From Rhizobium sp. Q54 (GTDB taxonomy: Bacteria > Pseudomonadota > Alphaproteobacteria > Rhizobiales > Xanthobacteraceae), in NCBI GenBank assembly GCA_945907045.1, contig CAMDSH010000005.1, forward strand, positions 62,001 to 126,000: 64,000 nt of DNA. Reading direction: 5' to 3'. Shown one piece after another: positions 25,570 through 44,435 of the stretch (its first letter is position 1; each line of letters opens with the position of its first letter). A program made the translations under genes and the position numbers. The notes under the pieces are model-generated. The model was not told the DNA's origin. It saw nothing but the letters and a program-made list of their open reading frames with translations, and made no database searches.

Positions 25570-25613
25570 TGGTTTTCCCCTTGCAGGAAAACCTAGCGGC
25601 CAATCTCTGACTT

Positions 25614-25702
25614 GTCATCGCCGGGCTTGTCCCGGCGATCCCGCCTAGGGAGGCAATGCGGTGCAAAAAAGTCGGGATGGCCGGGACAAGCCCGGCCATG
25701 AC
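25614..25702. repeat. REPIN-like pair of inverted REP palindromes
   Basis: An 89 bp unit made of two inverted 29 bp arms (25614-25642 and 25674-25702). Each arm is itself palindromic: GCCGGG-CTTGT-CCCGGC in the left arm and the reverse in the right arm. The 31 bp between them contains AGGCAATGCG, also found at the same place in the unit at 44329-44416. It fills the gap between the acyl-CoA synthetase and TauE genes and carries no coding signal. Confidence 0.85.
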
Positions 25703-25710
25703 GGTAAAAA

Positions 25711-26526: not shown

Positions 26527-26611
26527 TCACCCCCGCCTTCACCAGCCTTGTTTGCGCATGGCCGCCGCGACACAATCGGGGTCAACGAGAATAAACGGGA
26601 GGAAGGCTAAG

Positions 26612-28528
26612 ATGGACGCCCGCGCGAGCCGATACCAGGAAGTCTATGCGCGCGCCTGCCGCGATCCGGAAGGGTTCTGGGCGGAAGCGGCGCGCGAGAT
26701 CGACTGGTACGAGTCGGCCAAAAAAGTGTTCGACCCGAACGCAGGCGTCTACGGCCGCTGGTTCGTGGGCGCGTCCTGCAACACCTGCTTCAACGCCATT
26801 GACCGTCACGTGCAGCGCGGGCGCGGCAAGCAGCCGGCGCTGATCTATGACTCGCCGATGACCGGCACGAAAACGACGTTCACCTACGAGCAACTGCTCG
26901 ACGAAGTGAAAACGCTCGCTGCGATCTTGCAGGATTTCGGCGTCGTCAAAGGCGACCGCGTTATTCTCTATATGCCGGCGGTGCCGGAGGCGCTGTTCGG
27001 CATGCTGGCCTGCGCGCGCATCGGCGCCATTCATTCGGTGGTGTTCGGCGGTTTCGCGCCGAAGGAACTCGCGACGCGCCTGAACGACTGCAAGCCGAAA
27101 CTGATCCTCTCCGCGAGTTGCGGGCTCGAGCCCGGCCGCGTGGTGAAATACAAGCCACTGCTCGACGACGCGATCAATCTCGCAAAAGAAAAACCGCAGG
27201 CCGTGCTTATTCTCCAGCGCCCGCAGGAAACCGCGGAACTTAGCCAGGGCCGCGATCACGACTGGGGTGCGCTCCGCGCTGCCGCCATCAAGGCAAAAAA
27301 ATCCGCCGACTGCGTTCCCGTCGCTGCCACCGATCCGCTTTATATCCTCTACACCTCGGGCACGACCGGAATCCCGAAAGGCGTGGTGCGCGACAACGGC
27401 GGGCATCTGGTCGCGCTGAAATGGTCGATGAAAAATTTCTACGACATCGATCCCGGCGAAGTGTGGTGGTCGGGCTCCGACGTCGGCTGGGTGGTCGGCC
27501 ATTCCTACATCGTCTACGCGCCGCTGTTCCACGGCTGCACGACGGTTCTCTACGAAGGCAAGCCGGTCGGCACGCCGGACGCCGGCGCGTTCTGGCGCGT
27601 GTGCGCGGAACATAAAGTCGCCGCGCTGTTCACCGCGCCGACGGCGTTCCGCGCCATCAAGAAGGAAGACCCGAAAGGAACGCTGATCAAGAATTACGAC
27701 CTGTCGAAATTCCGCACGCTGTTTCTCGCCGGCGAGCGCGCCGATCCGCCGACGGTGGAATGGGCCGAACAGGTTTTGAAAGTGCCGGTGATCGACCACT
27801 GGTGGCAGACGGAAACCGGCTGGTGCATCGCCGGCAATCCGGTCGGCCTCGGCGCGCTTCCCGTCAAGCACGGCTCCGCCACCGTGGCGATGCCGGGTTA
27901 CGAAATCGACATCGTGGACGACGCCTGCAAGAAATTACCGCGCGGCACGATCGGTTCGATCGTCGTCAAGCTGCCGCTGCCGCCCGCGTGCCTGCCGACG
28001 CTGTGGCAGCAGGACGGCCGCATGCGCGAATCCTATCTCGACGAATTTCCCGGCTACTACAAGACGGCGGACGCCGGCTACATCGACGACGATGGCTACA
28101 TCTACGTGATGAGCCGCACCGACGACATCATCAACGTCGCCGGCCACCGGCTCTCCACCGGCGGCATGGAGGAGGTGCTGGCCGGCCACCACGACGTTGC
28201 GGAATGCGCGGTGCTCGGCATCAAGGACGATCTCAAGGGAGAGGTGCCGTGCGGCTTCATCGTGCTCAAAGCTGGCGTCAACCGCCCGCCGAGCGAGATC
28301 GAGGCCGAGATCGTCGCGCTGGTGCGCGAGAAAGTCGGGCCGGTCGCGTCCTTCAAGCTGGCGATCACGGTGGCGCGTTTGCCGAAAACGCGCTCGGGAA
28401 AAATCCTGCGCGGCACCATCAAGAAAATCGCCGACGGCGATGCGTGGACCATGCCGGCCACCATCGACGATCCGGCAATTCTGGATGAGATCAAGGGCGC
28501 GTTGAAGGGGAAGGGCGTGGGGGCGTAG
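26612..28528 (+). CDS. prpE: Propionyl-CoA synthetase (PrpE-like)
   Basis: 638 residues, the length of acetyl/propionyl-CoA synthetases. It has the ACS N-terminal segment (GRWFVGASCNTCFNAIDRHVQRG), a YTSGTTGIPKGVVRDNGGH P-loop, WWQTETGWCIAGNP and the acetylatable lysine in RLPKTRSGKILRG. The ASCNTCFNAIDRH and RDNGGH forms resemble PrpE more than Acs. It activates propionate to propionyl-CoA. The ATG at 26612 has GGGAGGAAGG upstream. It is divergent from tauE. Confidence 0.92.
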   Translation: MDARASRYQEVYARACRDPEGFWAEAAREIDWYESAKKVFDPNAGVYGRWFVGASCNTCFNAIDRHVQRGRGKQPALIYDSPMTGTKTTFTYEQLLDEVKTLAAILQDFGVVKGDRVILYMPAVPEALFGMLACARIGAIHSVVFGGFAPKELATRLNDCKPKLILSASCGLEPGRVVKYKPLLDDAINLAKEKPQAVLILQRPQETAELSQGRDHDWGALRAAAIKAKKSADCVPVAATDPLYILYTSGTTGIPKGVVRDNGGHLVALKWSMKNFYDIDPGEVWWSGSDVGWVVGHSYIVYAPLFHGCTTVLYEGKPVGTPDAGAFWRVCAEHKVAALFTAPTAFRAIKKEDPKGTLIKNYDLSKFRTLFLAGERADPPTVEWAEQVLKVPVIDHWWQTETGWCIAGNPVGLGALPVKHGSATVAMPGYEIDIVDDACKKLPRGTIGSIVVKLPLPPACLPTLWQQDGRMRESYLDEFPGYYKTADAGYIDDDGYIYVMSRTDDIINVAGHRLSTGGMEEVLAGHHDVAECAVLGIKDDLKGEVPCGFIVLKAGVNRPPSEIEAEIVALVREKVGPVASFKLAITVARLPKTRSGKILRGTIKKIADGDAWTMPATIDDPAILDEIKGALKGKGVGA

Positions 28529-28545
28529 ACATAGTCCTCTCAGCC

Positions 28546-28577
28546 GTCATGGCCGGGCTTGTCCCGGCCATCCACGC
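28546..28577. repeat. REP-like palindrome, left flank of the GIY-YIG gene
   Basis: A 32 bp arm (starts GTCATGGCCGGG, ends CCATCCACGC) that is internally palindromic. It matches the inverted arm at 28891-28922 in 30 of 32 positions. The GIY-YIG start codon lies 17 bp downstream, so the gene is boxed between the two arms. Confidence 0.85.
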
Positions 28578-28594
28578 CTTGCTTCAATCGGTAA

Positions 28595-28882
28595 ATGACA
28601 GGCGGCTGGGTTTATTTCATCACTAATAAACGCGACGGCGTTCTCTATGCCGGAGTGACGAACGATCTCGCGCGCCGCGCATTCGAACATCGCGAGGGAC
28701 TCGTGAAGGGATTCACAAAACGTCACGGCCTGAAGCGGCTGGTCTACTACGAGTGGTTCGACGATATCCGCGATGCCATTCAGCGCGAATCGACGATCAA
28801 GCATTGGCCGCGCGCATGGAAGGTTCGGCTGCTGCACGGGATGAACTCGGAATGGAATGATCTGTACGACACGCTTCTCTGA
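28595..28882 (+). CDS. GIY-YIG nuclease-domain protein framed by REP palindromes
   Basis: 95 residues, a single GIY-YIG domain of the YhbQ/UPF0213 type. The core WVYFITNKRDGVLYAGVTNDL holds the two tyrosine motifs (VYF and YAG in place of GIY and YIG). The catalytic arginine is in DLARRAFEH, and the metal-binding glutamate in IQRESTIKHW. It should be able to nick or cut DNA. There is no clear Shine-Dalgarno. The gene lies between two inverted 32 bp palindromes, unlike ordinary housekeeping genes, which suggests a selfish or repeat-maintenance unit. Confidence 0.88.
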   Translation: MTGGWVYFITNKRDGVLYAGVTNDLARRAFEHREGLVKGFTKRHGLKRLVYYEWFDDIRDAIQRESTIKHWPRAWKVRLLHGMNSEWNDLYDTLL

Positions 28883-28890
28883 GCAGGAAT

Positions 28891-28922
28891 GCGTGGATGG
28901 CCGGAACAAGTCCGGCCATGAC
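28891..28922. repeat. REP-like palindrome, right flank of the GIY-YIG gene
   Basis: Inverted partner of the arm at 28546-28577 (starts GCGTGGATGGCC, ends CGGCCATGAC). It begins 8 bp after the GIY-YIG stop codon, so the gene and its two arms form one 377 bp unit. Confidence 0.85.
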
Positions 28923-29040
28923 GAGAATTGAAGCGTCAGCAGTGAAGACGTGGATTGCCGGGTCAAGCCCGGCAATGACTAGAGAGGATTAAGTCCGGCC
29001 ATGACGAAAATAGAAGCGTCAGCAATGAAGGCGTGGACGC
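28908..29040. repeat. Decayed REP copies and 83 bp tandem duplication
   Basis: The stretch AAGTCCGGCCATGACGA followed by GAAGCGTCAGCA and TGAAG-CGTGGA occurs at 28908-28953 and again at 28991-29037, 83 bp apart. Between them lies another intact arm (28949-28979, core GCCGGG-TCAAG-CCCGGC). The last copy keeps only half an arm. The region to 29257 holds no gene; it looks like an array of repeats growing by slippage, plus the leader of the next gene. Confidence 0.75.
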
Positions 29041-44310: not shown

Positions 44311-44328
44311 TTCATTATCTGTACGATT

Positions 44329-44416
44329 GTCATCACCGGGCTTGTCCCGGTGATCCCGATCATAAGGCAATGCGTGCCTTCCTAAGCGGGATGGCCGGAA
44401 CAAGTCCGGCCATGAC
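44329..44416. repeat. REPIN-like pair of inverted REP palindromes
   Basis: An 88 bp unit with two inverted 29 bp arms (44329-44357, 44388-44416). Each arm is palindromic (ACCGGG-CTTGT-CCCGGT left; GCCGGA-ACAAG-TCCGGC right). Layout, arm length, spacer length and the spacer word AGGCAATGCG match the unit at 25614-25702. It lies just after rcdA and could fold into one long hairpin in the rcdA 3' UTR. Confidence 0.85.
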
Positions 44417-44435
44417 GAAAAAGGCCAGCCAACAA

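Follow-up and report, generated by a model that had tools for sequence, protein, structure and literature searches.

Small GIY-YIG nuclease genes and the inverted CGTC-REP palindromes that flank them in alphaproteobacteria

What is a gene for a small GIY-YIG nuclease doing between two inverted copies of a palindrome? The question is raised by a locus within a 64,000-nucleotide stretch of DNA (the window; G000:C5:62001-126000), which comes from a 74-contig, 3.32-Mb assembly (G000). A first-pass annotation had described a 95-residue GIY-YIG gene boxed by two inverted 32-bp arms, alike at 30 of 32 positions, with spacings of 17 and 8 nt. All of this is borne out (Table 1). The left arm starts 17 nt past the stop of the upstream neighbour gene, which by appearance encodes an acyl-CoA synthetase-like protein, and ends 17 nt before the ATG of the nuclease gene; the right arm starts 8 nt past its stop. 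Aligned at greater length, the two arms agree over 39 nt at 90%. From the sequence, their two mismatches amount to one compensated stem pair (G-C to A-T), so both arms are still perfect hairpins. Folded as single-stranded DNA, they have z-scores of -4.6 (left, 28545-28583) and -5.5 (right, 28885-28923). In both, the ATCCACG tail faces the gene and the GTC end points outward. Arms with the loop CTTGT and the tail ATCCACG are called T1 here; T2 has CTTGT and ATCCCG, and T3 has CTTGAC and ATCCAT. A half palindrome (28991-29006) lies near the third palindrome beyond the right arm, and the direct repeat that begins at 28986 is probably what remains of a duplication of the unit's right end.

Table 1. 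Features of the window that bear on the gene-bearing unit (positions within the window)
Feature	Position	Strand	Support or remark
Gene-less inverted palindrome pair, REPIN-like, left tail ATCCCG	25614..25702		fold z -8.2 (ssDNA, 25611-25705)
Upstream neighbour gene	26552..28528	+	precedes unit also in G004, G010, G017
Left arm: T1 CGTC-REP palindrome with tail ATCCACGC; GTC end points outward	28546..28577	+	sequence comparison, ssDNA fold
GIY-YIG nuclease gene, P0001, 95 aa	28595..28882	+	Pfam PF01541, E 5.7e-15
Right arm: inverted copy of left-arm palindrome	28891..28922	-	30/32 identical to left arm
Third palindrome, loop CTTGAC, just outside gene-bearing unit	28954..28979	-	pattern search
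Direct repeat of 28903-28954 (88%), includes half palindrome	28986..29037	+	repeat families D2, I18
Second gene-less inverted pair, tails ATCCCG	44329..44416		fold z -6.1 (44326-44419)

The protein itself (P0001) has the fold and the catalytic residues of the GIY-YIG superfamily, as judged by Pfam, alignments and a structural model. R28, E65 and N84, which by analogy with UvrC and I-TevI we take to be the catalytic residues, are invariant in alignments of 18 and 27 members. The AlphaFold2 model has a pLDDT of 95.6, and the sole solved fold that it matches at E < 0.001 is that of the UPF0213 protein 1zg2; the next are Slx1 (E 0.02) and the nuclease domain of UvrC (E 0.2). In sequence, size and fold P0001 resembles the UPF0213 and small GIY-YIG proteins whose structures have been solved (1zg2, 1ywl). 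A gonococcal homologue is 44% identical over 86 aa. In phages there are distant homologues only (10 records, at most 35.1% identity).

What kind of palindrome flanks the gene? The CGTC-REPs have been described as repeats with a CGTC, TGTC or CCTC tag, an 8-9 bp stem starting with AT, a 4-5 nt loop and a tail that is mostly CCA, present in many copies and mostly as dimers (PMC3733652). They are found across alphaproteobacteria, including Bradyrhizobium, S. meliloti and A. lipoferum, and in other phyla too (PMC3733652). The palindromes studied here carry the same unpaired end tag, CGTC (or TGTC, CCTC). The pattern search over all loci gave 387 matches, of which 326 are paired in at least seven of the nine stem positions and 284 in all nine. 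Across the 326, each stem pair is Watson-Crick in 93.9-99.4% of cases, with several pair types at most positions, the search pattern itself having required GTC, CTTG and CC. Their 9-bp stem opens with A-T in 303 and continues with T-A in 305, and the loop is CTTGA or CTTGT in 319 of the 326. The CCA tail is matched by the CCAC of T1 and the CCAT of T3, whereas the CCCG of T2 departs from it. The palindromes are also numerous. A pattern allowing up to three mismatches finds seven in the window, where 0.03 are expected, and a looser pattern (up to two mismatches) finds 57 in the 3.3-Mb assembly G000, compared with none for its reversed form. A relative, G017, has 106, many of them in pairs 50-90 nt apart, although singles occur too. 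By the criteria tested the palindromes are CGTC-REPs. One difference is that the repeats described by Di Nocera et al. (2013, PMC3733652) are, as far as the accessible text of that paper goes, unassociated with transposase genes and apparently without a dedicated transposase, whereas those here are tied to a GIY-YIG gene. The term 'GIY' is absent from the main text of PMC3733652, the available text of PMC12306157 names no transposase, RAYT or nuclease, and among the matches listed from the open-access literature none joins GIY-YIG genes and REPs.

Is the arrangement peculiar to one locus? P0001 has matches in 46 of 60 relatives, up to nine per genome. For each gene the 250 bp upstream of the start were compared with the 250 bp downstream of the stop, and the inverted repeat that scored best without gaps was taken (+1 for a match, -2 for a mismatch); arms were called at a score of at least 16. 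In a first set of 95 loci, arms flank 65 of 93 homologues but only 1 of 1160 random 288-bp intervals from the same loci. The second set, consisting of the best 80 loci of 316 relative-encoding stretches from a contig scan and having at least seven genes in common with the first, gives 59 of 81 genes and 2 of 1200 random intervals. Other open reading frames in the surveyed loci have arms in 10 of 601 cases; one of these ten is itself a second GIY-YIG gene, and two more are the same gene, met at two loci, with a GIY-YIG unit on either side. A class-wide survey found a homologue at E 1e-15 in 37 of 115 genomes, and among the best 29 loci outside G000 (one per genome) arms are present at 12, compared with 0 of 104 intervals. 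A plasmid collection yielded 39 records with a match, 17 of which were examined. The first 11 loci include eight with arms (Rhizobium CIAT894, S. meliloti, two Shinella, Neorhizobium, Azospirillum, Novosphingobium and Sphingobium) and three without (Sinorhizobium K101, R. tumorigenes and Planktothrix). Among the six further, non-alphaproteobacterial loci, the gonococcal one alone passes the score, by way of repeats around the gene, and the Aeromonas locus has such palindromes on both sides of the gene, not inverted.

The link of this subfamily of GIY-YIG genes to inverted palindromic arms is strong, although not universal. The association across relatives had been set beforehand as the test of the idea, and it survived, lying far above the frequencies at random intervals and at other reading frames of the same loci. 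At the strict score, 28 of 93, 22 of 81, 3 of 11 and 17 of 29 genes in the four sets are without arms, and the within-genus counts are not phylogenetically independent. More distant GIY-YIG subfamilies, included for contrast, have arms at 3 of the 19 scoreable loci among 20, all of them another CGTC-like repeat, and a 111-aa GIY-YIG group has them at none of seven. Distant members at L294, L295 and L297 are flanked by a different inverted repeat, starting CGTCATCCTGAGGTG or CGTCACCCTGAGGTG.

What if the gene had merely been caught between two repeats by chance, an alternative that the first-pass annotation had left standing? The repeats are frequent in G000 (57), and one relative has T1 arms around a different insert (L189, discussed later). 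Nevertheless, the random-interval and other-ORF controls reject such an accident, the arms match the clade of the protein (see below), and we give it hardly any credence.

Conservation was measured on 20 orthologous dnaN-gene-recF units from Bradyrhizobium and relatives. Identity is 96.3% for the left arm and 99.7% for the right, figures that are somewhat inflated because the units were chosen by arm pattern. The unselected 25 nt outside the arms are 34% and 41% identical. Loop and tail are conserved along with the stem, and the linker that follows the stop has a length of 7 nt in every one of the 20 units. The genes are 57% identical at codon position 3 and have a median dN/dS of 0.056 (19 equal-length sequences); three of the 20 contain one in-frame stop each. 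Both gene and arms are under constraint. Could an ordinary gene simply have hairpins here that terminate transcription or stabilise its mRNA? Strong hairpins closely flanking the coding sequence would suit that role. However, conservation reaches beyond the stem into loop and tail, the repeat of which the arms are inverted copies occurs genome-wide and has tails specific to the clade, and other reading frames at the same loci mostly do without them (the 10 of 601 given above). An explanation by terminators or stabilising hairpins is improbable.

The layout had been likened at the outset to REP/RAYT systems, and in several respects the likeness stands. In the REPIN-RAYT system (PMC8049555; PMC3116915), as here, REPs form inverted doublets whose short spacer varies. 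In both the enzyme gene is flanked by its own REPs, often at shared sites, and the repeats are commoner where the gene is present (PMC8049555). The enzyme is another matter. That of REPIN-RAYT systems is an HUH tyrosine transposase and their tag is GTAG, whereas here there is a GIY-YIG nuclease, a CGTC tag and several gene types per genome. A search for the Y1 transposase (RAYT, IS200 type; PF01797) gave no match in G000, G004, G010, G011, G017 and G019, and a single match among the seven genomes, in G025. With no tyrosine transposase found in six of the seven, the system is not a member of the REPIN-RAYT group, and this part of the comparison did not hold. Might RAYT or Y1 transposases nevertheless move the repeats while the nuclease gene rides along? 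The REPIN-like shape of the pairs would fit, and tyrosine transposases do occur in several CGTC-positive species (PMC3733652). However, the six genomes without PF01797 include the single-contig G004 and G011, which have 34 and 62 T1 palindromes, and the accessible text of PMC3733652 reports no tyrosine transposase gene flanked by CGTC repeats. A RAYT as the mover is largely refuted for those six genomes, and overall it is very improbable.

If the nuclease and the repeat belong together, does each kind of nuclease have its own kind of repeat? Placed on the protein tree, arm types T1, T2 and T3 need two changes over 23 genes, which is the minimum, whereas 500 shuffles need at least seven; the tree comprises 89 short proteins, with 37 of 86 inner branches unresolved, and labelling by regular expression left 26 of the 89 genes without a type. 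Other protein clades carry other palindromes. Arm type follows protein clade. A single genome can hold all three combinations: G017 has genes with T1 arms (C34, C79), T2 arms (C37) and T3 arms (C54), and also populations of palindromes with each of the three tails. Across 36 Pseudolabrys genomes, with two arms per gene subtracted, cognate palindromes are commoner where the gene is present than where it is absent, with medians of 40 and 11.5 for T1 (p 0.02), 6.5 and 2 for T2 (p 0.017) and 16 and 0 for T3 (p 0.008). Two cross-comparisons also reach significance, one between T3 palindromes and T2 genes (p 0.0001) and the other, weakly, between T1 palindromes and T3 genes (p 0.046). Genomes with more GIY-YIG matches tend to have more palindromes (rho 0.43, p 0.009). 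A T1 gene was not found in T1-rich G006, G020 and G012 (71, 47 and 36 palindromes), whose assemblies are 80-91% complete.

The same tails bear on the pairs without a gene. Two units of about 88 bp elsewhere in the window had been said to share the arms of the gene and suggested to be its dependents. The units exist, and the palindrome core is common to them and the gene-bearing unit. However, the inner tail differs, being ATCCCG in the gene-less units and ATCCACG beside the gene, and the former type is that of another clade. The two units are therefore probably not dependents of the window's gene. A gene of the clade that matches the ATCCCG tail was not found in the 91%-complete assembly G000, despite its 12 T2 palindromes.

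Gene-less T1 pairs in G004 and G017 are often asymmetric, with arms GGCCGGGCTTGTCCCGGCC and GCCCGGCCTTGTGCCGGGC. Unlike these, T1 units with a gene mostly carry GGCCGGGCTTGTCCCGGCC on both sides. A tandem pair of T1-armed GIY-YIG units is found at G004:C1:3817602-3818635 (L009, L200), with a frame break in the unit that is farther from the synthetase-like gene.

Does the gene-bearing unit move? The GIY-YIG genes belong to several clades per genome and their presence is patchy. Many are at orthologous sites, as seen among the matches listed and in the 20 dnaN-recF units, and therefore the gene itself seems to move rarely. The proposal that the gene-bearing unit is an autonomous mobile element has not fared well in this respect, since active jumping is not borne out and many genes, lying at such sites, look vertically inherited. 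At the window's own locus the unit lies behind the common neighbour gene in G004, G010 and G017, and remnants are found in G023 and G025. Altogether 30 loci behind that gene were compared (6 of 36 matched genomes being left out). They comprise three intact units, two remnants, one locus with both arms around another insert and 24 loci without a GIY-YIG match. Because the DNA beyond the neighbour gene is not conserved, the insertion point of the window's unit cannot be fixed. The locus with another insert is L189 of G065 (33-399, behind the synthetase-like gene), where inverted T1 arms about 340 bp apart enclose a small ORF-like stretch without a GIY-YIG match. This is possibly a cargo swap.

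The spacer between dnaN and recF gives a similar mixture. Of the best 30 loci of 282 matched genomes, 5 have a gene-bearing unit there and 2 (L212, L230) a clean T1 pair without a gene; the other 23 have single, altered, other or no matching palindromes. These spacers are too diverged for a target-site duplication to be read.

Gene-less pairs were also followed from G017 to G025, where 20 sites gave 17 flank matches and 14 alignable, syntenic sites. The pair is kept in 4 of the 14 (L248, L255, L261, L264) and not in 10. At L247, L252, L253, L259 and L262 G025 has another palindromic pair, and at L249, L257 and L266 it has unlike repeats. At L260/L283 a gene-less pair in G017 corresponds in G025 to a gene-bearing unit whose arms are of another kind and whose GIY-YIG gene is incomplete. 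At L251 (G017:C6:53680-53760) a gene-less T1 pair lies in frame inside an ileS-like ORF, which stays open, and the matched gene of G025 is without the pair, but also diverged. The in-frame pair is reminiscent of the in-frame palindromes of Rickettsia. Apart from this diverged case, the check for empty alleles produced no clean empty site or target-site duplication. Movement is suggested only indirectly, by the differing repeats at syntenic spacers. At most of the ten sites that differ there is a different repeat instead, and replacement by recombination could account for that.

A longer pair family (CCCGGGCGC...CCGGGAC/T) takes the place of T1 or T2 pairs in G025 at L252, L253, L262 and L260/L283. 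A palindrome similar to that of this family flanks another GIY-YIG clade.

What might the nuclease do to its repeats? That nuclease and repeats are associated in a real system is an observation. We think it fairly likely that the unit is a nuclease gene carrying its own target sites, and that the enzyme recognises and nicks the flanking palindromes, which would allow them to spread. Binding and cutting of the palindrome, the preference for single strands and the part of the nuclease in spread are what we infer from sequence. Most likely the 95-aa enzyme would recognise the flanking CGTC-REP palindromes as single-stranded hairpins, reading stem, loop and clade-specific tail and nicking beside the stem. 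The single-stranded DNA would probably arise at the replication fork or in the course of uptake. Two inverted sites would then define whatever lies between them as a unit, whether a gene or the short spacer of gene-less REPIN-like pairs, and repair or copying of the cut strand might occasionally, at low frequency, put that unit into other spacers. The gene copy would be kept by selection on the host or on its repeats, as for RAYTs (PMC8049555).

A parallel comes from Neisseria. The gonococcal homologue of P0001 (L310, 2270-3605) lies amid 11 dRS3-like repeats in 6.3 kb, and we take it to be the neisserial Ssn. The Ssn proteins, reportedly the subject of work by Chenal et al. in 2025, are said to be GIY-YIG superfamily nucleases that cut single-stranded DNA site-specifically, at a repeated sequence cognate to them, and their reported role is in the control of natural transformation. 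Ssn would share with P0001 the combination of a small GIY-YIG protein and a cognate repeat, in addition to the sequence identity noted above. P0001 is probably a single-strand-specific nuclease of the Ssn family, to judge from these comparisons.

What if such a system works without any transposition? In this scenario the cutting of single-stranded DNA at the repeats would shape uptake, recombination or repair, as is reported for Ssn in Neisseria. The repeats would spread by other means and flank the gene as regulators or as selected targets. The gonococcal arrangement (44% identity over 86 aa, 11 dRS3-like repeats) speaks for this, as does the fact that the dRS3 repeats of Neisseria are CGTC-1 REPs (PMC3733652). 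The shared sites and the dN/dS of 0.056 likewise fit a resident host function. However, taken alone it leaves two observations unexplained, namely that the gene lies inside an inverted pair at a near-constant distance and that the clade-specific tail types recur in gene-less pairs throughout the genome. We regard a purely resident nuclease-target system as a serious possibility, though one that falls short of being probable. Returning to the preferred reading, in which the enzyme nicks its flanking palindromes and so lets them spread, a wider version can be put forward tentatively, at a little under an even chance. Small GIY-YIG nucleases may be the missing dedicated enzymes of the CGTC-REPs, forming minimal mobile units that encode nothing but such a nuclease between its own hairpin targets and that have REPIN-like, gene-less dependents. 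Their origin would be independent of the RAYT transposases, although the architecture is shared, and several enzyme-repeat pairs would operate side by side within a genome as competitors for the same intergenic spacers.

With these results an orphan class of repeats gains a specific candidate partner enzyme, and a link is made to the neisserial dRS3 repeats and the GIY-YIG homologue that adjoins them. The three matched enzyme-target types within one genome are also a source from which rules of recognition could be drawn. And if the nuclease spreads the repeats as well, REPIN-like populations would have arisen by two independent routes.
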